Source: a virus. From it: a DNA stretch of 37,111 nt. Below are positions 9,266 to 33,977 of this stretch, one piece after another. The stretch is from IMG/VR virus record IMGVR_UViG_3300030333_008516, positions 1 to 37,111 of that record, one strand, 5' to 3'. The number at the start of each line of letters is the position of its first letter. Positions within the stretch are counted from its first letter, which is position 1. The translations under genes and the position numbers were made by a program. Below the pieces are notes generated by a model. That model searched no databases. It was given only the letters and a program-made list of their open reading frames with translations, and was not told the DNA's origin.

Positions 9266-11695
9266 TTAATCAAAAGTAAGGGTTTTGTCTACAATTTTTG
9301 AAGAAATATTTTCTATATTTCTGTTTTTAACAATGAACTGAGAGAGGGGGACTTGAACTAGAACTTTAACCATGTTTTTTATCTCTCTTGCATGATTATT
9401 CTTTTCTTTAATATGATTAAAAATATATTTTTGCAAGCTCAGGCTATAGCTCCACTTTACCCCTTTATTAAGCAAACGCTCTTTAATTTGAAGCAGTTCC
9501 CTGTTGATGATTTTCATTAAATGAGAATCTTCCAAGTTATTGAAAAAGATTATTTCGTCAATACGAGCTAAAAGTTCAGGACGCAAATGTTTTTTTAAGG
9601 ACTTTTTATAACTATCAGAGGCAGGTTCTTCTTGAGAGAGGAAACCCATGCTCCGCTTACCCTTCTTGTCCTGTCCGATATTAGAGGTCATGATGATAAC
9701 GGTGCCTGTAAAGTCTATTTTACGGTTAAGATTATCTGTTGCATAGCCTTCATCTAGTATGTGTAATAATACATCTAAAATTTTAGCATCACACTTCTCT
9801 ATCTCATCAAAAAGAACCACACAGTTGGGGTTCTCTCTGACAAACTCAGTAAGCAAGCCGCCTTCCTCATATCCGACATACCCAGCGTTAGCCCCCAACA
9901 ATTTTGAAATACCAGTTTTGTCCTGATATTCACTCATGTTTAGCTGGATAAAAGCTTTTTCATTGCCATAGAAATACTTTGATATTTTTTTCGCCGTGAA
10001 AGTTTTTCCGACACTTGTGTCTCCTATAAACAAAAAATTAGAAAGCGGTTTTTGAGAGTCATTGAGGCCAGCTTTTGCACAAGATAGAGCATTATGTATG
10101 ATTTGAATATTCTTTTCTTGCCCAAAGATTTCACTGTTCATTTTTTTGTGAAACGAGGTGAAGGAGGAATTTTTTGACAATGTTTTAGCCGATAAGCCAG
10201 TTTTATCGGTCATAACCTCAATAATATCTTTTTGCCGAATTTTTTCTTTTTTACCTTTTGCTTCCCCGTGTTTAGCCATTGTTTCTAAGTAGTCTTTTAG
10301 AAACTTAGTAAACTGCTCCTCGTCCAGATTAGGGTCATTGGAAGTATCAACTAAGAACTCACAGAACCTAGTGCGAGCTTTCGCTACTTTTGACGGTATA
10401 TGGTCATATTTGATCTTTGTTTTTGCCCCAACTTGGTCAATTACATCAAAAGCCTTGTCTGGAAATCTCTTATGGTTAAGGAATTTTTCACAAAAATCCA
10501 AGATAGTATCAATATCTTTCTCTTGATACTTAACCCTATGGAAATCCTCATAAAAAGGAAGGGCGTTCATGATAATCTCTTTAGTCGCAGTGCGACTAGG
10601 TTCATCTACCATGATCTTATCAAACCTGCGCTTCATGGCGCTGTCCTTTTCAAAGAATTTCTTATACTCCTGTGTAGTCGTAGCGCCTATGCATTTAATG
10701 CTACCCCTTGCTAGAGCGGGTTTTAACATATTTGATGCATCCACTGCACCCTCAGAGTTGCCAGCGCCAATAATTGTATGAATCTCATCAAAAAACAGTA
10801 TGATGTTTGACTCTCTCTCGGCCTCTGCAATGAGAGACTTGAACCTCTCTTCAAATTCTCCCCTGTATTTCGTTCCTGCCACCATTGCGCTAATGTCCAC
10901 CGTGCAAATTTGCATTAAGGACATGTGTGCTGGGCATTCTTGATTAACTATTCTTTGAGCTAACCCTTCAACAATGGCGGTCTTGCCAACGCCAGCCTCT
11001 CCCACAAGAATTGCATTACTTTTATTTTTCTTGGAAAGTATTTCTATAAGCTCATCAGTCTCCTTGTCTCTTCCTGAAATTTTAGAAGAACGTTTAACTA
11101 AAAAGTGGTGATTTAGATTTACGCAATATTTACTGAGATGCTCTAAAGCTTGTCGAGGAGCCTCTGTGGGGGTTTGGTTTAGTTTTTTGCCTTCGATCTG
11201 AAGAATGTTTTTGATTTGATCGGTTGGTGGGATGCTGGTTTCTAAAACATGAGTTTCGATAATATCCTTTGCATACTCCACATCAATACCAGCTTCGGCA
11301 AGATGCTCCACAAAGGGGCCACCCATGTCTAGTATAACATACAAAATATGTTCAACACCGATGAAATAACTATCAAAATTATCTGAAAATTCTTTAGCAA
11401 AGAATATAACCTCATTCACCTCGTCATGCCAAAATCCCTGCCCCTTTTTAGCTTTAAAAGAATTTTTATTCTCTGAAGCGTAGGTTTTAAAAGTCTTGAT
11501 AAATAGCTTCGGATCAAAGGTTATTCCATAATTTTTAAGCTTTAAGGCGCAGCTATCTGAGATATTAACCAAGCACCCATAGACTAAATGGGCGTTAGTA
11601 ACCAAAGAGTGGCCATTTGCCTCTGCAAATTTTTTAGCATCCTTAAGTCCCTTTTTCGCTTTCGGGGTTAGGTTGAAGTCTGTTAAACCCATCAT
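9266..11695 (-). CDS. clpA: ClpA-type AAA+ protein unfoldase
   Basis: An 809-residue Hsp100 protein. Residues about 3-150 are the double Clp-N repeat. The first AAA+ module has Walker A GEAGVGKT (232-239) and Walker B FFDEIH (D303, E304). There is no M-domain coiled coil between the modules, so it is ClpA-type and not ClpB/ClpC. The second AAA+ module has Walker A GDTSVGKT (558-565) and Walker B LFDEIEK (D630, E631). The loop RSMGFL (682-687) matches the I-G-F/L tripeptide by which ClpA and ClpX dock on ClpP. ATP-driven unfolding of proteins is expected. No ClpP is present in the window, so it would need the host peptidase or act alone. It lies 11 bases after the polymerase core gene. Confidence 0.93.
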   Translation of the reverse strand: MMGLTDFNLTPKAKKGLKDAKKFAEANGHSLVTNAHLVYGCLVNISDSCALKLKNYGITFDPKLFIKTFKTYASENKNSFKAKKGQGFWHDEVNEVIFFAKEFSDNFDSYFIGVEHILYVILDMGGPFVEHLAEAGIDVEYAKDIIETHVLETSIPPTDQIKNILQIEGKKLNQTPTEAPRQALEHLSKYCVNLNHHFLVKRSSKISGRDKETDELIEILSKKNKSNAILVGEAGVGKTAIVEGLAQRIVNQECPAHMSLMQICTVDISAMVAGTKYRGEFEERFKSLIAEAERESNIILFFDEIHTIIGAGNSEGAVDASNMLKPALARGSIKCIGATTTQEYKKFFEKDSAMKRRFDKIMVDEPSRTATKEIIMNALPFYEDFHRVKYQEKDIDTILDFCEKFLNHKRFPDKAFDVIDQVGAKTKIKYDHIPSKVAKARTRFCEFLVDTSNDPNLDEEQFTKFLKDYLETMAKHGEAKGKKEKIRQKDIIEVMTDKTGLSAKTLSKNSSFTSFHKKMNSEIFGQEKNIQIIHNALSCAKAGLNDSQKPLSNFLFIGDTSVGKTFTAKKISKYFYGNEKAFIQLNMSEYQDKTGISKLLGANAGYVGYEEGGLLTEFVRENPNCVVLFDEIEKCDAKILDVLLHILDEGYATDNLNRKIDFTGTVIIMTSNIGQDKKGKRSMGFLSQEEPASDSYKKSLKKHLRPELLARIDEIIFFNNLEDSHLMKIINRELLQIKERLLNKGVKWSYSLSLQKYIFNHIKEKNNHAREIKNMVKVLVQVPLSQFIVKNRNIENISSKIVDKTLTFD

Positions 11696-11706
11696 AATTA
11701 ATTACA

Positions 11707-14262
11707 CTACTTTACGTCAGATAGCTTCATGTAGATTTTATCCTTTAGCGGGAACACTTTATCTATGAAAACAACGTCATCGCCAACACTCCCATGAACA
11801 ATCACAATATCTCCTTTTTGCGGTAGTTTTTTGCCACTATCTAGGTAGTTAGTTAACCTCGCATCCCTTGCGCTGTCAAGGAACAATCCCTCCACTACGC
11901 CGCCTTCATCCTGAAGGGAGAAACGAGCATATTTGTTTCCGTTTCTGCTGGTTCTGCGTATGATATCTGTCAATATCCCTACAAACTTAATATGGCTGCG
12001 TTGCTCCATGTCTTTTATCTGCATGGCAGAATTAAAATCCTCACCGTGATTGAAGACCTCTCTTACATTGTGTGAATAACTATACCCCAATAGCTTCTCC
12101 TCAAAGAACCAGTTGGCATATTTAATATGCTCTATGTTCATAGAGTAAATGTCCTTATATGGTTGAAACTTTTTCTTGAAGGTCTCAAACCTTTTATCTG
12201 TGAACATTTTACGATTATCGTCTCCCACACAGTCGGATTTTTTAACGTCATGGATTGACTCCAAGATGTCAAAATTATATTTATCTCCCAAGGCAATGAA
12301 GTTTCTTTTTTCTCTGTCTGTTAGAATATTGAAAGTTTGTGCCTCTAAGACCAATCTTGAGCGACTCTTTTTTACAAAAGAATCCAAAAGCCCAGCTTGA
12401 ATAAGAGCAGAAAGAGTTCCTATATTGAGGCCAGCTTGTTTTGCTGAAATAAAAACTTCATATTTATTAGCAAATGAATCTTCACGGAACTCTAAAAGCG
12501 CTTCTAATACTTTTTCTGACACCCCTTTAATAGAGTTTAATCCGTATCTAATGTTTTTACCCTCAATTTTGAAGTCTATATCAGACTTGTTTAAGTCGGG
12601 AGGAAGTAGGGTTATGTCAAACTGAGGAAGCTCTTGAGAGATTTTTGCTATCTCTTCATGGGGACTTGGCTCATATTTTGCATATTTTAAAAGACTTAAA
12701 AAGAACTCTTGGGGATATTTAAATTTCAGGTAAACTGTAAGGGCTGCAAGGTGTGCGTAGCTAATGGAGTGCGACTTGTTGAAAGAGTAATTTGCTGAAT
12801 CCTCTGCGACTCTCCACAAAACATCACCTATGGCGGGGTCAAGGTTGCCGTCACTGATCTTTTGCTCAATCTTTGCTTTCCATGCTGGCATCTGATCAAC
12901 CTTCTTCTTCCCCACGATACGGCGCAACTGCTCCGATTCATCAAGGCTGAAGCCTACTTTAACAGCCATTTTCATTAACTGTTCTTGATACAGGGGAATG
13001 CCGCCCGTGTAACTAAGTATGTCATCAAAAAATTCATGCACAGACTGGAATTCTCCTGTTCTAGCATAGTCAGCGTATCTGTCCTTAAAGTCTAAAGCTC
13101 CAGGTCTAGCAATAGCTACAACCGCAGAAAGTTGTTCAAGGTTTCTTGGTGCGATTTGTTGGCATACTTTAAAGTTGGTGTCTGCCTCAATTTGAAACAG
13201 TCCTTGGGGGCATCTCAGTGATGCTAGTGCTGTATATATTAAGGGGTCATGAGGATCTATTTGAGATGCTTCTATGCCTAGTTGTTTGCAAACATCATGA
13301 ACCACAGATAGCGTTCTCAGTCCAAGGATATCAAATTTAACACTAAGACTGGAAACATCGTTCATGTCATAACCAGAAACTAATGCTCCATCATTAGTAG
13401 TCTGTAGGGGCATTATATCCTCCAAATCAAAATATGATATACAGATACCAGAGGGATGGACACCTGTGTTTTTGTTTAGTCCCTCTAATTTTTTTGCTAT
13501 CTTGAAAACCTTGGGGTGTTTATCAGCGTGACTTTTAAAGGTCTCACTCTCGTCATAGGCTATATTCAACTTAGATACGATGCCAAAATGCTTGGGAATA
13601 GTATCGCTAATTTGATTTACTTCAGTCTCGCTCAGTTCCCCTACTATCTTTCCGCACTCTTTCATGCAAAGCTTACTGCTTAGAGTGTTTAGCGTGAGAA
13701 TTTTAGATGTGCGTCCCTTGAATTTTTTTTCAATATAATTAATTACCTCGGCGCGACGATCATAGGATATATCATTGTCAACATCAGCCAACAAGCTTCC
13801 ATCGAGATAAATCTCTCCGTTGTGTTCAATTTTTCTAGCCCTGCTCTTGGAAACAAATCTTTCAAAGAACAAGTCATATTCAATCGGGTCAATATTGGTT
13901 ACGCCAATAACATAAAGAACCAAGGAACCTGCGGCACTACCTCTTCCAGCGCCAGTGGGAATGTCGTTCTCTTTGCAATAGTTGAGAATGTCCCAGTTTA
14001 GTAAAATGTAATCGACAAACCCAAGATCCTTAAAAATTGTAAGCTCCTCTTTAAGTCTGTCGTAATAGACTTGAGCGTTTTCAAGTTTATCTATTTCCTT
14101 TTCTTTAACTTTTGCGAAGCAAAGCTTACGAAGGAATTGATAGTTGTCTTCCAGGTCTGAGCAAGAAACTTCTTCGTAATATTTTTTTTCTATTTTAATT
14201 TGAGGAAGCTTAACTCCTACAGGGAAAGGTGTTTTGTAAGGTTTATAGGGATTGAAATTCAT
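11707..14262 (-). CDS. dnaE: DNA polymerase III alpha-type catalytic core (without PHP domain)
   Basis: An 851-residue C-family replicative polymerase beginning just before the palm domain. Motifs: GAGRGSAAGS (104-113), the catalytic Asp cluster ADVDND (D160, D162, D164; the third catalytic Asp is D311 in KFDILGLRTL), then FQIE and RPGALD, YQEQLMKMA, RRIVGKKK, YSFNKSHSISYA, followed by a helix-hairpin-helix region (YGLNSIKGVSEKVLEAL) and an OB fold near the C-terminus (FVGILTDI...YARFSLQDE). About 15 residues are inserted between FERFVS and the Asp cluster. The PHP and proofreading parts are supplied by the two preceding genes; the start overlaps the exonuclease stop by ATGA. Confidence 0.95.
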   Translation of the reverse strand: MNFNPYKPYKTPFPVGVKLPQIKIEKKYYEEVSCSDLEDNYQFLRKLCFAKVKEKEIDKLENAQVYYDRLKEELTIFKDLGFVDYILLNWDILNYCKENDIPTGAGRGSAAGSLVLYVIGVTNIDPIEYDLFFERFVSKSRARKIEHNGEIYLDGSLLADVDNDISYDRRAEVINYIEKKFKGRTSKILTLNTLSSKLCMKECGKIVGELSETEVNQISDTIPKHFGIVSKLNIAYDESETFKSHADKHPKVFKIAKKLEGLNKNTGVHPSGICISYFDLEDIMPLQTTNDGALVSGYDMNDVSSLSVKFDILGLRTLSVVHDVCKQLGIEASQIDPHDPLIYTALASLRCPQGLFQIEADTNFKVCQQIAPRNLEQLSAVVAIARPGALDFKDRYADYARTGEFQSVHEFFDDILSYTGGIPLYQEQLMKMAVKVGFSLDESEQLRRIVGKKKVDQMPAWKAKIEQKISDGNLDPAIGDVLWRVAEDSANYSFNKSHSISYAHLAALTVYLKFKYPQEFFLSLLKYAKYEPSPHEEIAKISQELPQFDITLLPPDLNKSDIDFKIEGKNIRYGLNSIKGVSEKVLEALLEFREDSFANKYEVFISAKQAGLNIGTLSALIQAGLLDSFVKKSRSRLVLEAQTFNILTDREKRNFIALGDKYNFDILESIHDVKKSDCVGDDNRKMFTDKRFETFKKKFQPYKDIYSMNIEHIKYANWFFEEKLLGYSYSHNVREVFNHGEDFNSAMQIKDMEQRSHIKFVGILTDIIRRTSRNGNKYARFSLQDEGGVVEGLFLDSARDARLTNYLDSGKKLPQKGDIVIVHGSVGDDVVFIDKVFPLKDKIYMKLSDVK

Positions 14263-14891
14263 ATCTCCAAGTCAAATAATTGCTTTCTGAAAACCTTAAA
14301 GTTCATCTCGATGTCATACAGAGCATCGTGCAGTCTTTTGGGGTCGTGATCAATGTTATACTTTTTTAACAGGGTCGCCTGAGATGTTTTGAGTCCCCTC
14401 TCCCTATGATTTAGGAGTCTATATTGCCAAGCAATGAGGTTCTCCCTCTCCACTGGAATTTGTTTGGCTATAGCTGTGGCTAGAGATTTGGTGTCGATGA
14501 TTCTTTTTACATAGGAATAATTACCCCCCAACCCCATAAGTTTTCGCCACACGTTAACCATGTAAACATCAAAACCTAAAAGGTTCTGACCGACAATGAG
14601 ATTGTTTTCGTCGTATAGATCCTTTGAAAACTTTTCCCAAACAGTGTTAGGGGGCAGTGATTTCTTGGAGTATTCTTTATAGGAAAATCCCGTGACCCTT
14701 GCTGCACCTTCCGATACGTTTAAATTAGGCCAGTGGATATAGTAATCATGCTTATCAATTATTGTGTCTCCCTCAACCAGTAGCCAAGCTACTTGCCAAG
14801 GTCGAGAAGTGACTAAATTTAATCCTTCTGTTTCAGTGTCAAAAACAACGTATCTTTGTTTTTTGTTGAATCTAAGTAATGGCTCATGCAT
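14259..14891 (-). CDS. DEDDh 3'-5' exonuclease (DnaQ/epsilon-like proofreading subunit)
   Basis: A 210-residue exonuclease from the ATG at 14891. ExoI is FDTETEG (D18, E20), ExoII is GQNLLGFD (D108) and ExoIII is HDALYD (H188, D193), giving the DEDDh set. Cutting 3' ends for proofreading is the expected role. It lies between the PHP-like gene and the polymerase core, overlapping the first by 8 bases (ATGCATGA) and the second by 4 (ATGA). An earlier ATG at 14930 gives 13 more residues, but those have no family match and a 47-base overlap, so I prefer 14891. Confidence 0.9.
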   Translation of the reverse strand: MHEPLLRFNKKQRYVVFDTETEGLNLVTSRPWQVAWLLVEGDTIIDKHDYYIHWPNLNVSEGAARVTGFSYKEYSKKSLPPNTVWEKFSKDLYDENNLIVGQNLLGFDVYMVNVWRKLMGLGGNYSYVKRIIDTKSLATAIAKQIPVERENLIAWQYRLLNHRERGLKTSQATLLKKYNIDHDPKRLHDALYDIEMNFKVFRKQLFDLEI

Positions 14892-15600
14892 GTTGTAAAT
14901 AGGACTCAAGGCAGAATTCATTGCTGCCAAAGTGGTTAAGGTTGGGGCTGCTTAAGGTGGCTGCTCTGCCAAAATTTCTATTGCACAATATCTTGTAAGT
15001 CTGTAGAGCTTCTACATCCTTCTTATTTTTATATAGAATTGTTTTTACAGACTCAATTGGTTTAGAGATTGAGTTAGCGAAGGAGACAACTTTTTCAGCT
15101 AACAAAAAATCAAATGGTAGGTTATTTGATTCTAGCCAGAAAGTTGGCGAGATGTCCATAAAGTCGGGGATACAGTTTTTAAGGTAAAACTGATTTTGAT
15201 AAAGAAATGAGTCATAGAATGGGATAACCATCTCTACCGAAGATTCGTCCCAAACGCTATTGAGGTAAGCAAGGTCCACTTTTCCTCCTCCCAGCATTTG
15301 GGAGAAAGAATAAATTTTATTTATTAGCTTGCACCCCTCGTCGTCCTTTGCAAAAATTATTACCTTGTGATCTGATAGATCGCCCTCTTCTTGAGTGTCG
15401 TTGCAACAAGTCAATCTCAATCCAAAAATTAGATGGATGCCCTCCTCCTTGCAGGTATTGTGACACTTAACAAAACCCGTCATAGAGTCTTCTACTAGAA
15501 CCAGAGGATTAATATTATGCTCTTTGGAGATATCAATAATCTCATCTAGCTTTAATATACTCTTTCCTATTGAATAGGTGGACTTAAATATGGGTGTCAT
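14884..15600 (-). CDS. PHP-domain-like N-terminal part of DNA polymerase III alpha, degenerate
   Basis: A 238-residue protein that aligns by eye to the N-terminal PHP domain of DnaE. STYSIG (residues 8-13) stands where DnaE has HxHSxYS; LVEDSMTGF stands where it has (I/L)TDHGN; IHLIFGLRL matches IKPI(I/V)G; and the end (QTYKILCNRNFG, then SNEFCLES) matches the region just before the DnaE palm. The His and Asp metal ligands of the PHP site are missing, so it is probably structural. It ends where the polymerase-core gene would continue, with the exonuclease gene between them. Confidence 0.75.
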   Translation of the reverse strand: MTPIFKSTYSIGKSILKLDEIIDISKEHNINPLVLVEDSMTGFVKCHNTCKEEGIHLIFGLRLTCCNDTQEEGDLSDHKVIIFAKDDEGCKLINKIYSFSQMLGGGKVDLAYLNSVWDESSVEMVIPFYDSFLYQNQFYLKNCIPDFMDISPTFWLESNNLPFDFLLAEKVVSFANSISKPIESVKTILYKNKKDVEALQTYKILCNRNFGRAATLSSPNLNHFGSNEFCLESYLQHA

Positions 15601-15632: not shown

Positions 15633-16658
15633 TCAAGAAGAATGTGCGGGACAACCTTCATAATACTTCATCTCATAAGCACCACCCTCAGGAACTAGAC
15701 TTTCTTCGAAGTCGTCTTCTAAATAAGATCCAATAATCTCATTGGAAGAATTATAAATTACATAATAAAAAAAGTCAAACTTCATGGGGCAATGCCACTT
15801 TGGTGAACCGTCTTTTTTAAGCTCTCCCTTTTTTGTGGCAAATCCACACAAGAGTCTTCCACTGAATGAACCGTCTTTAGGGAAATCTTGGCGAGCCGCA
15901 AAATTACTTTTTGCCTCCTTGATTGTAAAATTATCTAAGTATTGTTGTATTTCTGATAACTGTAACTCAAAACCTTCCAGTTCACCAGAGTCTAAAGGCT
16001 TCATTCTCACCACTCCTGAGTTGTTGGAGTTTTCATCTAGATCAAACTTCAAAAACAAAAACTCGCTTACCCTGTTAGAGTAATTGGGAAAAAGATTTTT
16101 AACTGCAAGGCTATACATCAAATCTTGTAAATTATCTGTAGCATCCTTACCTTTGAATACTGATTTGCTTGTTTTGAAATCTCGTATAAGAGCGAATTTT
16201 TTTCTTTTATAAAGAAATAATTTATCTATGAAGCCTCTGATTTTATACTTTATAGCGCCATCTTTTTTTACTATCTCAAAATCCTTTTCAGAATACTCTT
16301 CTGTTGGTTTACTGCCATCGTCACCAAAAAAGTCATAAGTTAGACCATTGTAAATCATCTCCTTAATCAGAGTGATGTTGTCATCATCATCCACACCTTC
16401 TTTGGTGGCATGTTTTAGTATTAGTCTCTTGATTGATGGAACACAAAAGACATCTTGAGATTTAATGATTTTGTCATAGTGCTTTTTGCGCCTACTTGGA
16501 CCCAATACCTCAAAAACTAAATGGCAAATAGAACCCCTTCTGGCTCCATCATTGCTCTTTTCGGGAAGATTTAACTTATACTTACACCAGTAAAGCCACG
16601 CGCAGGACTGTGCTGTTTTTATTCTGCTGGCCGAAAGAGGTGTTTGAGGATCAGGCAT
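15633..16658 (-). CDS. RecB/Cas4-like PD-(D/E)XK nuclease
   Basis: A 341-residue protein of the RecB nuclease family. It has LSASRIKTAQSCAWLYWCKY (the usual 'S-x-S-x-l...C' start), RRGSICHLVFE (motif I His), RGFIDKLFL (Asp), then ALIRDFKTSKS (catalytic D-x-K) and NLQDLMYSLAV (the Q-x3-Y motif of this family). Cys near the N-terminus and more Cys at LLCGF, WHCPM and EGCP near the C-terminus could hold an iron-sulphur cluster as in Cas4/AddB, but the spacing is not typical. The ATG at 16658 overlaps the primase stop by 8 bases. It probably processes DNA ends in replication or recombination. Confidence 0.87.
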   Translation of the reverse strand: MPDPQTPLSASRIKTAQSCAWLYWCKYKLNLPEKSNDGARRGSICHLVFEVLGPSRRKKHYDKIIKSQDVFCVPSIKRLILKHATKEGVDDDDNITLIKEMIYNGLTYDFFGDDGSKPTEEYSEKDFEIVKKDGAIKYKIRGFIDKLFLYKRKKFALIRDFKTSKSVFKGKDATDNLQDLMYSLAVKNLFPNYSNRVSEFLFLKFDLDENSNNSGVVRMKPLDSGELEGFELQLSEIQQYLDNFTIKEAKSNFAARQDFPKDGSFSGRLLCGFATKKGELKKDGSPKWHCPMKFDFFYYVIYNSSNEIIGSYLEDDFEESLVPEGGAYEMKYYEGCPAHSS

Positions 16659-17721
16659 CACTAAGCATTAAGGCGGTCTTAATTTCTTTTTTAGTGAAGC
16701 GTGAGGTATTATTTTTAACGAAATTACAGATATAGTCTAGCTGTTTAGCTTGATTGTGTTCTTTCTCAAGCCAATTTTTCTTAAAATCATACCCATCTAA
16801 ATGAGCGTCACCAAAATCATTATAGGGTTTTGGTGGGAATTTTACAATTAATCTGTCTAGGTCGAAATAAGAAGATAATTTAATAAATGTTTTTATCGCT
16901 GCGATAAGTCCTCTATTTTCCCCACTGCCTTGATCATTATTTGTTGAAATGCATATAGAGCAAATAGACTTGCTACTAAGATAGCTAATAATGTTAGCGT
17001 TAACAGATAGGCCAAACATGACCAGCACATTTTTAATACCTTGTTCGTAAAGAGCCATTGCATCGCCTATACTTTCTACTAAAATAACTTGTTTTTTTGA
17101 ATTAATATTATCATCCACTTCATTTCCTTTGGTGAATGCTGGATAAACCCAATTGTTTCTACGTCCTATATGCTTCCATTTTGGATAGTTGTTATCATCG
17201 TCAACCTTTCTGCCAGAAAAGCCAACAATTTGATGATGTTCATTGTATATAGGAAAGACCATCCTTCTATACATCTTTCCGACTCCAGCAAGTCCAGCTT
17301 TAAAAGATTTTTGAGTTTGCTCAGAAATATTGCGCTTACAATAAAAATGATAATTAGAAAAAAGTTTATCTAGTGAAGATTCGGGATACACCCTATCCAT
17401 CTGATTTAGTTTTTTAGGAGTATAAGATGGTAAGTTTTCCGTCTTGGTTCTGCCTAAAATTTCAGATAGTTGCTTAGGGTCTTTTACTGTAAGCTTAATT
17501 AGCGCTTCAAAAGGCTTGCATCCTTTATCTTGCACAAAATCCATCCATACACCCGTGTCTTTATAGATTTTTAAAGCAGTTGGATTATCTCCCTCTCTAT
17601 AAAGAGCAGAGCTTCTCCAGTGGTCGCCACAGTCAATCAGCTTGTATCCTAAAGACTCCAAGAGTCCTTGGAAATCCTCAGAACTCACCGAAGTCTGGTA
17701 TTGTTTCTTGTCGTCCATCAC
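16651..17721 (-). CDS. DnaG-like primase with degenerate zinc-binding domain
   Basis: A 356-residue protein laid out as DnaG. Residues about 10-85 correspond to the zinc-binding domain (NPTALKIYKDTGVWMDF) but lack the Cys pairs. Residues about 115-200 match the RNA-polymerase N-terminal part (YRRMVFPIYN, VGFSGRKV). The Toprim domain has LVESIGDAMAL (E216), then TNNDQGSG (261-268, with Asn where the first Asp of DxD is usual) and NDFGDA (301-306). There is no C-terminal helicase-binding domain of usual size. It starts at GTG 17721 (or ATG 17718) after a GGAGGA at 17731-17736, and overlaps the helicase stop by 44 bases; a later GTG at 17688 would shorten this. It likely makes primers with the neighbouring helicase. 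Confidence 0.85.
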   Translation of the reverse strand: MMDDKKQYQTSVSSEDFQGLLESLGYKLIDCGDHWRSSALYREGDNPTALKIYKDTGVWMDFVQDKGCKPFEALIKLTVKDPKQLSEILGRTKTENLPSYTPKKLNQMDRVYPESSLDKLFSNYHFYCKRNISEQTQKSFKAGLAGVGKMYRRMVFPIYNEHHQIVGFSGRKVDDDNNYPKWKHIGRRNNWVYPAFTKGNEVDDNINSKKQVILVESIGDAMALYEQGIKNVLVMFGLSVNANIISYLSSKSICSICISTNNDQGSGENRGLIAAIKTFIKLSSYFDLDRLIVKFPPKPYNDFGDAHLDGYDFKKNWLEKEHNQAKQLDYICNFVKNNTSRFTKKEIKTALMLSDA

Positions 17722-19195
17722 TGTCTAAATCCTCCTCGCCATTCAACACTCTTGCTATATCTCGCAAATCGCCACATTCGCTAATATTAAAATTATTAAA
17801 ATCTAAATTTATAGCATTTTTACGAAGGCTATCACCAACTCTTACGGGTTCTATTGCGCCAGCAATATCGTCACCAAGGTGCCGAGCTTTAACATTGATA
17901 AGTTTATGCGTTCCAAATCTTTGCCCCTCAACTTCAATTTCATCAGCGGTTTTATTTCTCAAAATAAACATATGAGAGCAGAACTGAGTGATTCTGTCTG
18001 ACAGGGAGACGATGGATTCGTCATCTACTATGGTTTGCGCTGTTCTGTTGTTTGTGATTCCGTATCTATTGGATTGGACAGATGTAATCATCGGAATGAT
18101 TGGCTCCCCTTCCCATAAGATTTCCTTTTGAACGCATTTCTTAAACTTATCTACCATTTCGCCTACCACCTGCCACTCTGACTTATTGGCAATGTTCTCT
18201 GAGGTTGTTTTGATATAATCAAAAGAGAAAATCATCTTATTGCCTCTTCCCACCTTGGAATAGTAGAACCTTTTAAGGGTGTTGACCATAGAGTCTACAT
18301 CCATGCCGCCCACATTGTAGTAGTAAAACTTTAAGTCTTTTACTTTATTCCAAACGCTCCTAACCTTATTGACTACAGTTTCGCCTGACTGTCTCCATTT
18401 GCCACTTTCCAATAGATGCATGGGAACTCCTGATAAGGCTGCACATTGCCGCATAATAAGCTCCTCTTTGCTCATCTCGCCATTATCAAAGTGGAGGACG
18501 GGAGCATCATATTTAAGACTTACTTTAGTGCAGTAGTCCATGCAGAAATTTGTTTTACCAACTCCTGACCGAGCCACAATAACGGTAATATTACCAGCGC
18601 GAAGAAGCGAGCCGTAGATATCATTCACTTTTGGGTGTGGACCCATCATTCCAAACTCTGTAAGAGGATTGTTGCCCCTTTCTTCGACTAGGGACTCCAT
18701 TTCCTCATAGATATTTTGAGGAGTGTCATTTCCAAGCTCGTAGAGGTTGATCCGTGAATTATAGATTGTGTCAGCCGATTCAACAATACTCCTGTAAGAT
18801 GCATCAGGAGGTATGTTCTTCATTTTTTTTGCAATCTCCTGCGAAGATTGAAGTATTTCCCTTCTAATAGAATACTTTTTTAATTCTTTGGCAGTTTTAA
18901 CTGTATTACCTACAGGAACCTTTCTTAAGGTTAAAGATTTAATGTAATCAGATGGATTTAAATTATCCTCAAAGGAGAGTCCCACCTCGTTTACTCTTTG
19001 TGCGATGATTATTTCATCTACCTCATCGCCACCATTCAAGGCTTGTTGAATGATGCGGAAAATTGTTGAGTTAAGTGGGCTTTGCTCAGAATAAAAATCT
19101 GAAGTATCAATAAAATTTGAGATCTCAGCAAAACTTTCGGGGTCTTTAAGAAGACCCGCCAATAGCTGTTTTTCTAGCTCTAGGTTATAGATCAT
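17678..19195 (-). CDS. DnaB-like replicative helicase
   Basis: A 505-residue RecA-fold helicase. The N-terminal domain (about 1-150) has the DnaB start (LELEKQLLAGLL, then FYSEQ). The C-terminal motor domain has Walker A ARSGVGKT (208-215), the HFDNGEMSKEEL segment (motif H1a of DnaB), Walker B IFSFDYIKTT and the later VQSNRYG (the Gln of H3), then SLSDRI. It is expected to unwind the phage replication fork 5' to 3'. It is coupled by overlap to the small acidic protein upstream and the primase downstream, so helicase and primase are probably made together. Confidence 0.92.
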   Translation of the reverse strand: MIYNLELEKQLLAGLLKDPESFAEISNFIDTSDFYSEQSPLNSTIFRIIQQALNGGDEVDEIIIAQRVNEVGLSFEDNLNPSDYIKSLTLRKVPVGNTVKTAKELKKYSIRREILQSSQEIAKKMKNIPPDASYRSIVESADTIYNSRINLYELGNDTPQNIYEEMESLVEERGNNPLTEFGMMGPHPKVNDIYGSLLRAGNITVIVARSGVGKTNFCMDYCTKVSLKYDAPVLHFDNGEMSKEELIMRQCAALSGVPMHLLESGKWRQSGETVVNKVRSVWNKVKDLKFYYYNVGGMDVDSMVNTLKRFYYSKVGRGNKMIFSFDYIKTTSENIANKSEWQVVGEMVDKFKKCVQKEILWEGEPIIPMITSVQSNRYGITNNRTAQTIVDDESIVSLSDRITQFCSHMFILRNKTADEIEVEGQRFGTHKLINVKARHLGDDIAGAIEPVRVGDSLRKNAINLDFNNFNISECGDLRDIARVLNGEEDLDSDGRQETIPDFGEF

Positions 19196-19434
19196 TCTGA
19201 TTGAGCCTTTCTCTCCTCCTGCATACTTCTTATGTAATCCTCTAGTGTTTTAACTAGGGCTAGTTCAGTCATGCCACAATCAAATTTTGTATAAACGAGT
19301 GGCTTTCCGTTTTCTGAGGAAACAGCAATGATAACACCTTTATACTTATCGGGGCCACCAGACAACTCGTAAAGGTTATCAACCATTTCTGTAGGAAGGG
19401 AAAACTCGTTATCGTCTTGATCCTCTAAATTCAT
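19192..19434 (-). CDS. Small acidic protein of unknown function
   Basis: An 80-residue protein. The start is acidic (MNLEDQDDNEF), the middle reads as strands with YELSGGPDKYKGVIIAVS and PLVYTKFDC, and the end is a helix with LVKTLEDYIRSM. Both ends overlap neighbours by 4 bases (ATGA type), which supports it as a real gene. It sits between the nuclease and helicase genes and may be a helicase accessory, but that is only from position. Confidence 0.65.
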   Translation of the reverse strand: MNLEDQDDNEFSLPTEMVDNLYELSGGPDKYKGVIIAVSSENGKPLVYTKFDCGMTELALVKTLEDYIRSMQEERKAQSE

Positions 19435-19838
19435 AAGTATATCTCCTGATCATTAAATAGTGAAGCTGTAATAGTGTCGTTTGGGTAGACCTCTGCCAAC
19501 TTTATATCGTTCGCCTGACAGAAGTCAAACTTTTTTTGATCCCTTTTTAATTGATCGGAATATTTAAAGCGGTTCTTGTGAAAGAACTTGACAAACTTTG
19601 TGTGTTGCGCCCCCTGAACTTCTACAGCTATTTTTTTATTAGCGTTGTAAAAATCAAGAGTCAGCCGACTTCCTGCAACCCGAAACTCTTCAAAAACAAT
19701 GTCGTTTTTCCAATACGGAAATAGAAATTTTTTTACAGCCGTTTGAAATTTACTGCGACTCGGTTTATCCCAATCTATTAAATATTTTTTTGCGTTTTTA
19801 AGGTTTCTTTCTTTGCCGTATTCGTCAATAAACTTCAT
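19431..19838 (-). CDS. Small PD-(D/E)XK endonuclease-like protein
   Basis: A 135-residue protein. The core reads VFEEFRVAGSRLTLDFYNANKK then IAVEVQGAQH: the D of LTLDF and the E-x-Q of VEVQG are in the place of the catalytic acids of Vsr/DUF559-type nucleases of the PD-(D/E)XK fold. A basic helix (KYSDQLKRDQKKFDFCQA) follows. This size and fold suit a structure-specific or repair endonuclease. Its neighbours are the RecA-like gene upstream (ATGA-type overlap) and a small protein downstream, so a role in recombination is likely. Confidence 0.7.
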   Translation of the reverse strand: MKFIDEYGKERNLKNAKKYLIDWDKPSRSKFQTAVKKFLFPYWKNDIVFEEFRVAGSRLTLDFYNANKKIAVEVQGAQHTKFVKFFHKNRFKYSDQLKRDQKKFDFCQANDIKLAEVYPNDTITASLFNDQEIYL

Positions 19839-20947: not shown

Positions 20948-21287
20948 CTAAGAAATCTTTTATTGTTTTGTTTTTGGGGGGGATAACAGCATCTTCCCCT
21001 ACTTTGTCTCCGATATTGTAGACTTCGTATTTGGATAGATCAACCCTAAAATTGAAAGCTCTGAATTTTTGGTCAAGAGCTTCTTTTAGCTTAACGCTAG
21101 TAAGATATGTTAATGAATCAAATTTTCTACCAAAATCGACAATATTCATAAATTCTAAAGAATAACGCTCACAAAGATCATTTAAGAGCTTCATTTCTCT
21201 AGCGAAAAAGGGTCGCCTACCCTTATCGGGAACTTCCAATAAGCGAAAAATAATATGTCTTTTGTTCGGACCTTTAGACTTTGCCAC
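20940..21287 (-). CDS. Unknown protein between the glycan and recombination genes
   Basis: A 115-residue protein, basic at the start (MAKSKGPNKRHIIF) with a short helical middle (REMKLLNDLCERYSLEFMNI) and a DFGRKFDSLTYLT segment. It starts at GTG 21287, in a TAGTG overlap with the stop of gmd, and overlaps the RecA-like start by 8 bases. It therefore links the glycan locus and the replication block in one transcript. No family is recognised. Confidence 0.6.
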   Translation of the reverse strand: MAKSKGPNKRHIIFRLLEVPDKGRRPFFAREMKLLNDLCERYSLEFMNIVDFGRKFDSLTYLTSVKLKEALDQKFRAFNFRVDLSKYEVYNIGDKVGEDAVIPPKNKTIKDFLDE

Positions 21288-22333
21288 TATGGATACATAA
21301 CAGATGCTGTGTCCCTGTCAACCATTTTTTTAACAAGCTGAATAAAGGTAGACTTGGGGGTCCACCCTAACTCTTCGCGAGCTTTCGTTGAATCTCCCCA
21401 TAATAAATCAACTTCAGCAGGACGATAAAAATCTTTATTAATTCTAACAAAGCAGTCCTTGCCATGAAAATATTTCTCATCTAGTCCTTCGCCACGCCAC
21501 TCGCAAATGCTTCTATGGAAACCTGCAAAGTTAAACGCCTCTACAACAAACTCTCTAATAGTGTGAGTTTCATTAGACGATAAAACATAATCTTTAGGCT
21601 TTTCCCTGTCTTGGTTTAGCATTCGCCAGATGCCACTTACAAAATCCTCCGCATCGCTCCAGTCCCTTTTGGCATCTAGATTTCCCAATTCAAGGGGGGT
21701 TATTTCTTTTCCTTGTTCGAACTCTTTCAAGATTCTGGCAACATTTTTTGTGATCTTTCTGGTTACAAATTCTTCCCCACGACGAACTCCTTCATGGTTA
21801 AAAAGCCAACCTTGCACTGCATAGAGGTCGTAGGAATCCCTATATACCTTCACTAAGTGTCTAGCGGCACATTTAGAGGCTCCATAAGGGCTTCTAGGGC
21901 GTAACGGATGCTCCTCGTTCTGTGGGACAGTTACAACATCTCCAAACTCCTCAGAGCTTCCTGCGTTGTAATATCGACAATGTGGAGCGTGGCGACGAAT
22001 GGACTCTAGTTGATTTAAAACCGCCATACAGTTTGTCTGCATGTGGTTGTGGGGCATATCCCAGCTACAACCCACAAAAGAGTTTGCTGCAAAATTAATA
22101 AAATAATCGGGCTTATGTTCTTCAACAACTTTATCCACATTTTGAGAATCGGTAACATCTAAATCAATTAGAAAGAAACGGGGATTTTCAAGTAAATGTT
22201 CAATATTAATGTGGTTCTTGACACTTAAGCGTCTAACTCCTCCTATAATAGAGTGTTCTGTATTTTTTAGGAGATAGTCTGCCATCAAACTTCCGTCTTG
22301 ACCCGTCACCCCAGTGATTAATATTTTCTTCAT
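21287..22333 (-). CDS. gmd: GDP-mannose 4,6-dehydratase
   Basis: A 348-residue extended SDR enzyme that converts GDP-mannose to GDP-4-keto-6-deoxymannose. NAD(P) binding is at TGVTGQDG (7-14). The active-site set SSEEFG (Ser/Glu) and YGASK (Tyr-x3-Lys) is intact, and FNHEGVRRGEEFVTRK is the characteristic Gmd segment, with G-V where the family has S-P. The end carries the sugar-nucleotide region YRPAEVD and the 'LGW.P' tail. It follows fcl with a 4-base overlap, and together they would make GDP-L-fucose or a related sugar. Confidence 0.95.
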   Translation of the reverse strand: MKKILITGVTGQDGSLMADYLLKNTEHSIIGGVRRLSVKNHINIEHLLENPRFFLIDLDVTDSQNVDKVVEEHKPDYFINFAANSFVGCSWDMPHNHMQTNCMAVLNQLESIRRHAPHCRYYNAGSSEEFGDVVTVPQNEEHPLRPRSPYGASKCAARHLVKVYRDSYDLYAVQGWLFNHEGVRRGEEFVTRKITKNVARILKEFEQGKEITPLELGNLDAKRDWSDAEDFVSGIWRMLNQDREKPKDYVLSSNETHTIREFVVEAFNFAGFHRSICEWRGEGLDEKYFHGKDCFVRINKDFYRPAEVDLLWGDSTKAREELGWTPKSTFIQLVKKMVDRDTASVMYP

Positions 22334-23238
22334 GAATTGATATACCAGTTATAAGTTTTGAGTAGACCATCCTCAAGACTCGTTGATGCCTTAAAGTTAA
22401 ATTCTTTTTCTGCTTTTGAAGTGTCTAAGCACCTGCGGGGTTGGCCATTAGGTTTGGTGGGATCAAACACGATCTCCCCTTTGAATCCTACTATATCCTT
22501 AATTAAATAAACAAGATTTTTGATTGATATTTCTTGCCCCGTCCCAATGTTGATTGGTTTGGGCGAGTTATAGTTATCCATTGCAAGTTCGATAGCTTTA
22601 GCACAGTCACCAGCATAAAGGAACTCGCGAGATGCAGACCCATCACCCCACACCTCCACTGACGCTTCTCCTGTTTCTTTTGCTTCTATAAATTTTTTCA
22701 ACAAAGCAGGGATGACATGAGAACTGTCAGGGTTGAAGTTGTCGTGCTCTCCATACATGTTAACAGGGATTAAATGAATGAAGTTTCTAGCGTATTGGTC
22801 ATGATAAGCCTGACATCCCACTAAAAGATTTTTCTTGGCGATTCCATAAGGGGCATTTGTTTCCTCTGGATAACCATTCCATAGATCTTCCTCCTTAAAT
22901 GGAACTGGGGTAAACTTTGGATAAGAACAAACACTGCCTAAGGTAATAAGTTTTTCTATGTTGTAATAACTTGAAGCTGATAAAATATTTAAACTCATTA
23001 AAGAGTTATGAAGAAAGAAATCGGCGGGAGATTCTTGATTCGCACCAATCCCTCCACAAACGGCTGCTAGGTGAATGATAATGTTTGGGCCATTCGAAGA
23101 GATGTAATCGTGAAGATCATCTATATCTGATACGTTTAGCTCTGCGCTTGTTGGAGTAAGTAGCTGATGCTTGTCCTTTAATTGTTTAACCAAGTGGTGG
23201 CCCAAAAAGCCATTCGCTCCTGTGATTAAAATTTTCAT
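22330..23238 (-). CDS. fcl: GDP-L-fucose synthase (GDP-4-keto-6-deoxymannose epimerase/reductase)
   Basis: A 302-residue SDR from the ATG at 23238 (one base after the aminotransferase stop; a longer ATG at 23280 is unlikely). It has ITGANGFLG at the NADPH site, the Fcl signature CGGIGAN, the GSVCSYPK segment and YGIAKK as the Tyr-x3-Lys pair, then NMYGEHDNF and HVIPALLKKF, which are specific for GDP-fucose synthase. It acts on the product of gmd, encoded next. The pair may supply fucose to the surrounding transferases. Confidence 0.95.
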   Translation of the reverse strand: MKILITGANGFLGHHLVKQLKDKHQLLTPTSAELNVSDIDDLHDYISSNGPNIIIHLAAVCGGIGANQESPADFFLHNSLMSLNILSASSYYNIEKLITLGSVCSYPKFTPVPFKEEDLWNGYPEETNAPYGIAKKNLLVGCQAYHDQYARNFIHLIPVNMYGEHDNFNPDSSHVIPALLKKFIEAKETGEASVEVWGDGSASREFLYAGDCAKAIELAMDNYNSPKPINIGTGQEISIKNLVYLIKDIVGFKGEIVFDPTKPNGQPRRCLDTSKAEKEFNFKASTSLEDGLLKTYNWYINS

Positions 23239-23239
23239 A

Positions 23240-24352
23240 CTAATATTGATACTGGTTGATTGAGTGACACATGTATTCAACCTCTTCGATATCCATAAAA
23301 GGGTGAATTGGTAAGCTTACCATTTGATGGCTGAAACTTAGTGCTTTGGAGTTAGGTTGACCTTTCAAGTCTTTATACATGGGCATTTTTTCTATAAGAA
23401 TAGGGTAATGAATTCCATGTTGGATATTATAAGAGTCTAAATGATTCTGAAATTTCTCTCTGTTTTCTACTAAAACAGGATAAACATGATGAACTGGTGT
23501 GCAATTATCTGGATTAAGGGGTAATTTTACAAAGCTGTTGTCAATAGCTGCTTCATAGTGAGAGACAATCTTCCTTCTGCTTTCGTTCCAGTAGTCTAAG
23601 TGTTTTAATTTTTCTTTTAGGATGATGGCTTGGATTGTGTCAAGTCGGTGATTGTATCCTTTTTCTGTATGAATGTATTTTTTGTCTGACCCTAAATTTC
23701 TGAGGTTTTTTAAACGGTTATAAATATCTGTATCATTAGTGGTAATTACTCCTGCATCTCCTGCCCCGCCTAAGTTCTTTCCAGGGTAAAGAGAGAAGGC
23801 TGAAACTTTGCCAAAAGATCCCGTTTTGCACTGCTTAAATAATGCACCATGGGATTGAGAAGCGTCTTCCAGAATTATGCAATCATATTCTGTCGCAATA
23901 TCCTGTATTGCCTCCATGTTACAGCTATAGCCATATAGGTGAACAGGAACGATAACTAAATTGTCGTAGTCTGATCTTGCTTCAGACACCAAGGATCTCA
24001 ATTTAGAAATATCCATCTGGTGGTAGTCATCACAGTCAGTCAGAATAAAGTCTGCATTACTAAAACCCTGCTCTAAGCCAAGGATGGTAGCTACAAACGT
24101 GTTAGCGGGAATTATCGCCCCCGTGCGCCCTTTTAGATTCAGGGCAGAAGCTGATAACTTCAGGGCATCTGTTCCATTAGAGACTCCTACAGAATATCTA
24201 CAACCTATGTAAGTAGCGAAATCTTCCTCAAAATCACTTACAGCGCCACCTAAAATAAAATCACTGTTTTCAAACAGTTTATCTATTTGTTTTAGGGAGT
24301 TATGCTTAATGAGTTCCCATTGAGCATTTAGATTGTTGAAGCAGACTCTCAC
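23240..24352 (-). CDS. DegT/DnrJ/EryC1-family sugar aminotransferase
   Basis: A 370-residue PLP enzyme that adds an amino group to a keto sugar nucleotide. The PLP lysine is K192 in SLYPGKNLGGAGDAG, and EDASQSHGA holds the PLP-nitrogen Asp (D163). The 'YPGKNLG' form of the lysine motif is typical of FdtB/QdtB-like (3-keto sugar) transaminases more than of perosamine synthase. It starts at a GTG within the previous dehydrogenase gene (47-base overlap) and just before fcl. With the dehydrogenase and formyltransferase it likely makes a formamido sugar. Confidence 0.92.
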   Translation of the reverse strand: MRVCFNNLNAQWELIKHNSLKQIDKLFENSDFILGGAVSDFEEDFATYIGCRYSVGVSNGTDALKLSASALNLKGRTGAIIPANTFVATILGLEQGFSNADFILTDCDDYHQMDISKLRSLVSEARSDYDNLVIVPVHLYGYSCNMEAIQDIATEYDCIILEDASQSHGALFKQCKTGSFGKVSAFSLYPGKNLGGAGDAGVITTNDTDIYNRLKNLRNLGSDKKYIHTEKGYNHRLDTIQAIILKEKLKHLDYWNESRRKIVSHYEAAIDNSFVKLPLNPDNCTPVHHVYPVLVENREKFQNHLDSYNIQHGIHYPILIEKMPMYKDLKGQPNSKALSFSHQMVSLPIHPFMDIEEVEYMCHSINQYQY

Positions 24353-25184
24353 GATTTAGTGACTTAGTAATATTAAGAGTAAGGTCTCTCTGTTCTACAT
24401 TTTTATCGAAAAAAGAATTAATTGAACAATGAAGCGGAGAAACTGCTGGAATTTCTATGGTTTTGTCTATATATTTTAAAGAATTTAAATTGTCGTGCCA
24501 CTCTAATATTCCTCTGTCAAACTCCATTATGTTTTGCCTATCTTTTTTTCCATAAGACCAACTTGCATTAATTTGAACACAGGTATGTTCGAATGATAAG
24601 ACTCCAACCACGCTATCTTCTTGTAGAGAATCAGGGTCTCTTTTAAAATCTATCCAGCTTACTTCCTTGGGTTGTTCTTCTAATAGATAGTGAGCTATAG
24701 AAACATCGTGAGAAGCTAAATCCCATCGGGCATTAACATCGCTTCTGACAGGTCCGAAGTTCATTCGATTGGCAAGAATGTTTTTTGGTTTTCCCTCTTT
24801 TTGGATTAAATTTTTTATTTCTTTAACCGCAGGGTTGAAAGTAAAAAGCCAGTCTACAAAAAGATAGCTGCCGTTTTTTTCAGCTAAATTAAAAAGCTTC
24901 TCACAATTTTTACTGTCTACATCTAGGGGTTTTTCACAAAAAACATCTATTCCTTTTTGCAGAAAAAAGCTGCATATGTCAAAGTGGCTTGTGGCGGGGG
25001 TTAAAACAAAGACTTTATCGCATTTTAGTTTTTTATAGTCTTTACATAATTTGTATTTGGAGCCTATCTGTGACCAATCCACATCTTTAGATTCACATAC
25101 TGTAATATCCTTATATCCAAGTTGTTCTAGATTTTTGAGTATTATCTTACCCCAGTATCCTAATCCTATTAAGCCTATCTTCAT
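24306..25184 (-). CDS. Gfo/Idh/MocA-family sugar dehydrogenase
   Basis: A 292-residue NAD(P)-dependent oxidoreductase. The N-terminal Rossmann fold starts GLIGLGYWG; the catalytic CEKP motif is at 83-86 (K85); and WDLASHDVSIAHYL holds the second active-site His of the C-terminal domain. Family members such as WlbA oxidise C3 of a UDP- or dTDP-sugar before an aminotransferase acts. The aminotransferase follows with an overlap, which fits that order. The length is slightly short of the usual 310-350. The substrate is unknown. Confidence 0.87.
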   Translation of the reverse strand: MKIGLIGLGYWGKIILKNLEQLGYKDITVCESKDVDWSQIGSKYKLCKDYKKLKCDKVFVLTPATSHFDICSFFLQKGIDVFCEKPLDVDSKNCEKLFNLAEKNGSYLFVDWLFTFNPAVKEIKNLIQKEGKPKNILANRMNFGPVRSDVNARWDLASHDVSIAHYLLEEQPKEVSWIDFKRDPDSLQEDSVVGVLSFEHTCVQINASWSYGKKDRQNIMEFDRGILEWHDNLNSLKYIDKTIEIPAVSPLHCSINSFFDKNVEQRDLTLNITKSLNRESLLQQSKCSMGTH

Positions 25185-25807
25185 CTTCTAAATCCAGATC
25201 TTTCTCCTAGTAAGTGATTTTGTTTGTTAGAATAATAGGTAAATTCTTTAGATTGTGAGGTCGCCACAGAGAGAGAATAATCAAGTTTAGAGGCTACGTC
25301 TTTAAAAAGTAGCCATCCATATTCTAAAGCTTTGTTGTATACATCTTCTACTTCTTCAATTTCGGGATAAATAGGATATGTGACTCGACCCAATATGTCA
25401 CCATCGTCAATCCCTTCGTGGATTTTATGTATCGTTACCCCGTGCTCTCTTTCTTCGTTTAGAAGCGCCCAGTTGATTGGGCGAACACCCCTGTATTTAG
25501 GAAGGGGGGCGTTATGAAGATTTATAATAGAACCACATCTAGAAATAAAAGGTTTTTTTATAATCTTTCCATAAAAAACAGACATCGCCAAATCTATATT
25601 TAAATCCGCATTGAGATCATTGTAATCTCCCGATGAAATAACGCTAACTTTATTGTTGTTTGCCCAATCAGTAAGAGATTCTGTCCAGTCTGGTTCGGGA
25701 AGGTCTGGAACTATTGCAACAAGGTTGTGGTTTCTGTTAAACCAGTCGGCAATTTTAATTGCTAAAGAGCCTTTACCTAGCAATACTATGTTTTTTTGCT
25801 TCGTCAT
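25181..25807 (-). CDS. Sugar N-formyltransferase (Fmt-like fold)
   Basis: A 208-residue formyltransferase with only the catalytic domain. The triad Asn-His-Asp is at N96, H98 (IINLHNAPLPKYRG) and D137 (GIDDGDIL). The fold starts NIVLLGKGSLAI. The tRNA-binding C-terminal domain of methionyl-tRNA formyltransferase is absent, so the substrate is a sugar nucleotide amine, with 10-formyl-THF as donor. The aminotransferase two genes later would supply the amine. It overlaps the previous glycosyltransferase gene by 35 bases. Confidence 0.88.
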   Translation of the reverse strand: MTKQKNIVLLGKGSLAIKIADWFNRNHNLVAIVPDLPEPDWTESLTDWANNNKVSVISSGDYNDLNADLNIDLAMSVFYGKIIKKPFISRCGSIINLHNAPLPKYRGVRPINWALLNEEREHGVTIHKIHEGIDDGDILGRVTYPIYPEIEEVEDVYNKALEYGWLLFKDVASKLDYSLSVATSQSKEFTYYSNKQNHLLGERSGFRR

Positions 25808-26564
25808 ATATTTTTTCCAACCAGTAGTCAGTATTTAAATATTTTTCGTTCTTCTTGCCTCTAGCTTCGTTAATTTTGCTATCAATAAGTTTTTTGTCTA
25901 AAAGGTCTTCGTTATTTTCAATTAAAACCAAGGGAAATAAATGATGTAAATAATTATACTGTTGAACATTGAAAGTCAAGGGTGTTCTATCTAGGTATAA
26001 GGTCTCGTATATCCTGTGATTATCACCCCTATCGTTACCCTGAGCGCAAACAATAGCCTTGTGTTTTAAAATTTCATTTACATAGTTCTCATAATCTAAA
26101 TTAGGCTCTTTCCACGTTATGTGAGATTCATTCTTTGAAATCGTTTGCAAGACGCTGCGGTGGTGCGGATTTGTATTAATTGTAAAGCAAGAAAACAAAA
26201 AGTCTTTGTATTCCTCGCTAGGAGGGTTACTTAGAATTTTGTGCTTTAGTTTTGCATGTTCCCAAACATGGCCGTGACCCTCTCTCTTGCATTCAATTGA
26301 ATTCTCTAAGCCTAGAGGGATCGGCTCTAGAAGAGGATTAGATGAAAGCCTATTTTGACAAAACCATTTTTTAATATTAGGGGGTGCCTGAGAAGCTAAA
26401 TGGTCTGTAATACAGTAATCGCTATTTCCTGTGATAAAAATCACATCATTTTTTAATGATTTGATATAACTGAACTCTTGTAAGATATAATCAGTTTTGC
26501 AGAAAATAATATTCTTGCCATCGTGCAGCTTAGAGAAATTGTTAATCTGTAACAATCGGCTCAT
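25773..26564 (-). CDS. Exostosin/GT47-like glycosyltransferase
   Basis: A 263-residue protein. The C-terminal half reads IVCAQGNDRGDNHRIYETLYLDRTPLTFN, the exostosin-type 'P-x-G-x-x-x-x-R-x-Y-E-a-l' donor-binding pattern, followed by a FPLVLIENNEDL segment. The N-terminal half has PIPLGLENS, also seen in the family. The protein is short for GT47 (usually over 300). It sits between a methyltransferase and the formyltransferase in the glycan locus. Sugar unknown. Confidence 0.7.
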   Translation of the reverse strand: MSRLLQINNFSKLHDGKNIIFCKTDYILQEFSYIKSLKNDVIFITGNSDYCITDHLASQAPPNIKKWFCQNRLSSNPLLEPIPLGLENSIECKREGHGHVWEHAKLKHKILSNPPSEEYKDFLFSCFTINTNPHHRSVLQTISKNESHITWKEPNLDYENYVNEILKHKAIVCAQGNDRGDNHRIYETLYLDRTPLTFNVQQYNYLHHLFPLVLIENNEDLLDKKLIDSKINEARGKKNEKYLNTDYWLEKIYDEAKKHSIAR

Positions 26565-27177
26565 TACTTATTTTTTTGTAAATACTATAACCATGTCTAT
26601 CGTAGTCATCTCTTTCACACGCCACCCAATCTGGAGATGCTTCTAGAAGTAGTTGACACTCTTTTGTTTTGAGTTCGTTCGTATCGTCTAAGATAAAAAT
26701 AGAACATTTGTTTTTAAGTTTATGAAACTCTGCCAAAGTTGAAAATTCACCCCCATCTAGCAAGATAACATCAAAAAATTCAGGCAACAAATGCGCTATG
26801 TTTTCAACCTGTTGATAATTATTAAGATCGTTTTGTTTCCAGATAGGATATTCCTTTTTAACTGGATCTTGCTTTTTTAAATTGTTGATGTCTATCAATT
26901 CGTCTTCGTCAATAATTCTTCCAAGCAAAAGATTAACTTTAGGGTTTTTTTCTACGTCTGACCAAAAATTAATAGCTTGATTGTAAAAACTTGGGTCGGA
27001 CTCAAGTGAATAAAAAGACCACTCATCATCTCTCGGTAGTAGTCCATCAAGAAAACATTTAGTGCTGCCTTGACCGTTCCATGTTCCTATTTCTAAATAG
27101 GATTTATAAGAGGTGTTACTAGCTATATTAAAAATAGCCTCACCAAGAGCCGTTCTTCGATTAATTTGTCCACTCAT
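26542..27177 (-). CDS. Class I SAM-dependent methyltransferase
   Basis: A 211-residue protein with SYLEIGTWNGQGS (motif I, the SAM-binding glycine loop), YSLESDP (acidic end of strand 2) and FDVILLDGGEFS (motif IV/post II). It is like the small Methyltransf_24 family that decorates glycans. Its place between two glycosyltransferase-like genes supports a sugar or glycan substrate. The start is 18 bases after the preceding gene, the longest gap in this part of the locus. Confidence 0.78.
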   Translation of the reverse strand: MSGQINRRTALGEAIFNIASNTSYKSYLEIGTWNGQGSTKCFLDGLLPRDDEWSFYSLESDPSFYNQAINFWSDVEKNPKVNLLLGRIIDEDELIDINNLKKQDPVKKEYPIWKQNDLNNYQQVENIAHLLPEFFDVILLDGGEFSTLAEFHKLKNKCSIFILDDTNELKTKECQLLLEASPDWVACERDDYDRHGYSIYKKISNEPIVTD

Positions 27178-27194
27178 TTTATTTAATTAACTTA

Positions 27195-31819: not shown

Positions 31820-32178
31820 TAATCTCCTTTCGTAACTCTGATACTGTCTTCATCAAAATGTTGAGTAGAAAATTCGAACATTTCTGTGTCTTCTGCCGCA
31901 TACATTTGATGGCGAAGACCTACTTTAACGTGAAAATTGTCGCCCTCTCCTAAAATAACCCTCTCGGCCCTCGATATGTCATCATCCTCTCCATAGGAAA
32001 CTATTAACTTGCCTTTTCTTACATAAAAAACCTCGTCTTTTAGTTTGTGGTAATGCCAAGAACATTTTTTACCTTTTGCAAAAAATAAAATCTTACCACA
32101 ATACTCTTCCTTGTTAACAATCCACTTTTCATAGCCCCAACCCTTCGGGACAAACTTAATCTTTGAAAAATTCTTCAT
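31819..32178 (-). CDS. Cupin-fold protein, mannose-6-phosphate isomerase-like
   Basis: A 119-residue single-domain cupin. KGKKCSWHYHKLKDEVFYVRKGKL is the first cupin motif with its His-x-His and Glu metal ligands, and GDNFHVKVGLRHQMYA is the second with its His. The start (KGWGYEKWIVN) is common in cupins of sugar loci related to mannose-6-phosphate isomerase type II. It may isomerise a sugar phosphate or a keto sugar. The HAD gene before it overlaps by 23 bases. Confidence 0.8.
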   Translation of the reverse strand: MKNFSKIKFVPKGWGYEKWIVNKEEYCGKILFFAKGKKCSWHYHKLKDEVFYVRKGKLIVSYGEDDDISRAERVILGEGDNFHVKVGLRHQMYAAEDTEMFEFSTQHFDEDSIRVTKGD

Positions 32179-33976: not shown

Positions 33977-33977
33977 T

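Follow-up and report, generated by a model that had tools for sequence, protein, structure and literature searches.

In a 37,111-nucleotide stretch of the IMG/VR virus record IMGVR_UViG_3300030333_008516 (its positions 1–37,111, hereafter the window), positions 11707–15600 carry three overlapping genes on the minus strand that appear to encode a C-family replicative DNA polymerase in separate pieces. In coding order, they are a gene for a 238-amino-acid protein resembling a PHP domain (14884–15600), a gene for a DEDDh 3'-5' exonuclease of 210 amino acids (14259–14891), and a gene for an 851-amino-acid DnaE-type polymerase core with palm, thumb, fingers, HhH, and OB regions (11707–14262). Consecutive genes overlap by 8 bases (14884–14891) and by the 4 bases ATGA (14259–14262). 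This arrangement agrees with the original prediction, made from the nucleotide sequence, of three separate genes in this order with overlaps of 8 and 4 bases. Pfam searches assigned the three products to PHP (PF02811, 8e-8), RNase_T (PF00929, 9e-14), and DNA_pol3_alpha (PF07733, 1e-60), respectively. An alignment of 34 relatives placed the exonuclease start at the ATG at 14891 (M..LLRF), and the 8-base overlap is therefore right. The TTG at 14930, which begins the longest exonuclease open reading frame (ORF) in the program-made list, was rejected on the basis of this alignment.

The core protein matched, in addition to the main polymerase profile, the Pfam finger and HhH profiles and, weakly, the OB profile. 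It aligned with residues 382–954 of Taq alpha at 1e-105 and with PolC at only 2e-4, which identifies it at the sequence level as a DnaE-type and not a PolC-type polymerase. The three catalytic aspartates and the GxGRGS motif were found in 33 of 33 core sequences. The chain ends after the OB region, lacking both an N-terminal PHP domain and the C-terminal domain of DnaE, and no QxxLF-like internal clamp-binding motif was conserved at the expected place in the core sequences. In the exonuclease, the DEDDh catalytic residues were intact in all 34 sequences compared, and the motifs of both proteins are thus preserved, as had been claimed. The closest solved structure to the exonuclease was that of the Thermotoga maritima PolC exonuclease. 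In the 210-residue phage protein, the exonuclease domain extends to residue 201, leaving the protein without a C-terminal tail of the Escherichia coli epsilon type.

The identity of the first protein was settled by fold comparison, since a sequence-only PDB search with its profile retrieved just PolC, with an E-value of 0.04. An AlphaFold2 model of the protein had a mean confidence (pLDDT) of 83.7 and a predicted template modelling score (pTM) of 0.82, and every one of the 20 best PDB matches in Foldseek was a chain of Pol III alpha or of PolC. They included the PHP domains of the E. coli, Taq, and Mycobacterium tuberculosis alpha subunits and of PolC, with E-values from 5.8e-12 and TM-scores of ~0.65–0.79 by query length. 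On the strength of this model, the protein is a PHP domain of the C-family polymerase type that stands alone, and the doubt whether it would have any structural match to a PHP fold was dispelled by the clear match to that of Pol III alpha. All nine ligands of the metal-binding set HHDHEH[C/H]DH, which marks active PHP domains, are replaced or gapped. Basic residues stand at former ligand positions in the 34 sequences (K6 in 33/34; K13, R62, and K79 each in 34/34), as read from a low-identity alignment. Inactive PHP domains are frequent among C-family polymerases (PMC12926913). Within the family, the alignment of 34 PHP-like sequences has 41 invariant columns, and the PHP-like protein is the least conserved and fastest evolving of the three.

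We located the cut by comparison with one-chain DnaE proteins. In those of bacteria, mostly Patescibacteria, the PHP profile of the family matched from residue ~9 up to ~220 and the core profile from ~276, collinearly; the PHP profile also matched the N-terminus of an Alicyclobacillus phage DnaE (5.5e-9). In E. coli DnaE numbering, the PHP-like protein stops at about residue 250 and the core picks up at about residue 279. The original prediction had proposed that the two proteins together rebuild a full DnaE. The cut does sit where PHP meets the palm in one-chain DnaEs, but ~25 residues (about 252–276, the helix after PHP) and the C-terminal domain are absent, and judged by these alignments "full DnaE" is too strong a term for the two polymerase pieces. 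The split may have arisen by insertion of an exonuclease gene at this point or by an earlier fission.

Searching IMG/VR for relatives, we confirmed 380 with the core and kept the 80 best; with the PHP alignment, we confirmed at least 554 related PHP genes. The scored set consisted of 166 viral loci, 98 of them distinct at the junctions. The order PHP-like, exonuclease, core on one strand was present in 166 of 166 loci, and wherever the sequence reached 3 kb or more upstream of the core (160 loci), all three genes were present, a constancy of gene order far beyond chance. No ORF fusing the parts was found in the 166 loci, and the split was retained in members with core identity as low as ~51%. 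The ATGA overlap between exonuclease and core was common to 74 of the 98 distinct loci. At the PHP-like/exonuclease junction, the length and frame of the overlap differed within the family, with two kinds of frame relation in 52 and 45 loci, respectively; overlaps ranged from -26 to +2. Median ratios of nonsynonymous to synonymous substitution rates (dN/dS, 42 pairs) were 0.07 for the PHP-like gene (maximum 0.17), 0.033 for the exonuclease, and 0.029 for the core, showing purifying selection on all three genes. In a tree of cores, the family formed a single clade on a long stem (support 100/100), as would be expected if the split arose once; the tree did not single out a nearest one-chain relative of the clade. 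Two other viral proteins, A0A8S5Q1A1 (175 amino acids) and A0A5Q2W3U5 (447 amino acids), are candidates for further stand-alone PHP proteins, which might have become detached separately.

The possibility of a sequencing error joining the frames, which the original prediction had named as a way in which it could fail, was ruled out by the recurrence of the boundaries in 98 distinct loci. Conservation, the mixed frame relations, the whole genes at some junctions, and purifying selection all reject a sequencing error or frameshift.

Several loci departed from the common arrangement in detail. Whole inserted genes were seen at the exonuclease/core junction (L003, L008, and L010), in part of the loci L066–L078, and at the PHP-like/exonuclease junction (L097, L100, and L102). 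Inspected by eye, the inserts encode a cupin together with an FkbM-like methyltransferase, a protein of no recognisable type, and what may be a PD-(D/E)XK nuclease. The gene junctions look like preferred landing sites for inserted genes. When L011 was compared with L012 and L055, the dN of the exonuclease was ~4 times that of the PHP-like protein and core in the same pair, a divergence that hints that only the exonuclease gene recombined. In one further locus (L198:4995-7979), the core itself was split into two ORFs of 593 and 393 amino acids.

Taken together, we favour the interpretation, to which we assign a probability of roughly 0.72, that the products of the three genes make up a C-family replicase with an alpha chain cut between PHP and palm. 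The core would synthesise, the exonuclease would proofread, and the PHP-like protein, a structural subunit without catalytic activity, would occupy the same place on the palm as the covalently attached PHP of DnaE and dock the exonuclease. We infer from the gene data that the three proteins would reassemble physically into one proofreading replicase. In such an assembly, the core would make DNA, the exonuclease would edit as its proofreader, and the PHP-like protein would brace the palm. The same protein may also dock the exonuclease, and the overlaps between the genes could couple the synthesis of the three proteins. In E. coli, the PHP domain of alpha is the docking site of epsilon (PMC3919608). 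Twelve large contigs each carried one DnaE gene and, at unknown completeness, no PolA; the split enzyme is therefore probably the main replicase. A bacterial-type clamp gene (PF02767) was likewise absent from these 12 contigs, with the same caveat on completeness.

Some observations weigh against this interpretation. E. coli epsilon grips PHP through a C-terminal tail that the exonuclease here does not have, and any contact with PHP must therefore differ from that in E. coli. The palm was poorly predicted when the core was modelled alone, with parts at pLDDT < 50 and a loose superposition on PDB structures, and this model was left out of our conclusions. Gene neighbourhood and selection also fall short of proving contact between the proteins.

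The loss of all metal ligands, four of whose positions hold conserved lysine or arginine, and the rapid evolution of the PHP-like protein would also fit a conventional replicase of two subunits, core and exonuclease, with the PHP-like protein put to a different use, such as binding DNA or a host factor via its basic former active site. Two loci, L204 and L209, moreover hold ~1.8 and 1.1 kb of other DNA between the PHP-like and exonuclease genes. We nevertheless consider this explanation unlikely, as the PHP-like gene is never absent from the cassette and the palm is joined to PHP in every one-chain relative examined. The lost metal site and low conservation might also suggest that the PHP-like gene is a decaying, functionless leftover. 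This is very improbable and is contradicted by dN/dS values that stay at or below 0.17 over the 42 pairs, by the 41 invariant columns, and by the presence of the gene in every locus able to show it. A different reading of the overlapping frames is that programmed frameshifting fuses the three products into one PolC-like chain, for which we see almost no chance: the junction data contradict it, given that both PHP-to-exonuclease frame relations exist, that overlaps run from -26 to +2, that whole genes sit in some junctions, and that no locus has a fused ORF.

A more elaborate role for the PHP-like protein, which we put forward only tentatively, is that of a detachable accessory subunit with a conserved basic pocket in place of the former metal site (K6, K13, R62, and K79, near the invariant E37 and D38). 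Through this pocket it would bind DNA, phosphate, or the exonuclease, and it would toggle the core from synthesis to proofreading and back. The locus might in that case be a modular proofreading cassette and not merely a cut-up DnaE.

The three genes lie within a longer minus-strand cassette. Upstream are genes for a DnaB-like helicase, a primase-like protein, and a PD-(D/E)XK nuclease (15633–19195), and downstream is a gene for a Clp-type double AAA+ ATPase (9266–11695). The wider cassette of helicase, primase, nuclease, PHP-like protein, exonuclease, core, and Clp ATPase is also conserved among relatives, and the ATPase constantly adjoins the polymerase across the whole family. Elsewhere in the window, an HNH/homing-type endonuclease gene (19431–19838) separates the UvsX-like recombinase gene from that of the helicase, and a large sugar-nucleotide block (21287–34746) encodes several epimerases, an aminotransferase, a heptose-type adenylyltransferase, and a formyltransferase, a gene content that suggests that the phage alters or makes surface glycans.

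The cassette belongs to a group of bacterial viruses that is widespread, uncultured, and for the most part marine. Terminase matches in 7 of the 12 large contigs mark them as tailed phages. Judged by core, exonuclease, Clp ATPase, and helicase, cultured relatives are only distant (~35% identity or less). Bins of metagenome-assembled genomes (Saprospiraceae, Flavobacteriaceae, and others) disagreed on the host, and none is claimed. The PHP-like gene has at least 554 relatives in IMG/VR, and the three-gene cassette can serve as a marker for a common uncultured phage group. The cassette also offers a natural case of a detached PHP, a domain of puzzling function that is ordinarily part of the polymerase chain; a core that can be produced with and without its PHP partner would make the role of PHP in folding, activity, and proofreader docking directly measurable.

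Split phage DnaEs are already known, while a detached PHP with an exonuclease gene at the cut is apparently unreported: we found no report of PHP as its own gene in this arrangement, in a literature search that left out most subscription papers and one key phage-replicase paper. Jumbo phages of group 2.2 encode a split minimal Pol III alpha (PMC7824862) and thus share the division of a phage Pol III alpha into separate proteins. Their cut falls within the catalytic module, however, the genes lie far apart, other Pol III domains are absent, and a family B polymerase is present. The phages Cuke, phi13:1/phiST, and MVC_VPHSA2 have a two-piece DnaE encoded by adjacent or overlapping genes, as here, but PHP stays fused to the start of the palm, the cut lies inside the core, and no exonuclease gene stands at the cut. 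In Wifcevirus WFC and Pbunavirus Ab27, a DEDDh-type exonuclease gene overlaps a C-family polymerase gene, as in our locus, yet it lies just upstream of a one-chain DnaE that retains its PHP domain. PolC is similar in placing the exonuclease at the PHP region, and its exonuclease is the closest solved one. PolC is nonetheless a single polypeptide whose exonuclease sits within the PHP domain, whereas here the ORFs are separate, the exonuclease follows a whole PHP, and the core is of DnaE type. The E. coli-type Pol III core (alpha DnaE1 and epsilon DnaQ) shares the DnaE-type polymerase, the separately encoded DEDDh exonuclease, and an inactive PHP. In contrast to that enzyme, the exonuclease here has no epsilon tail and the core no C-terminal domain, and PHP, which in E. 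coli lies within alpha, is a protein of its own.
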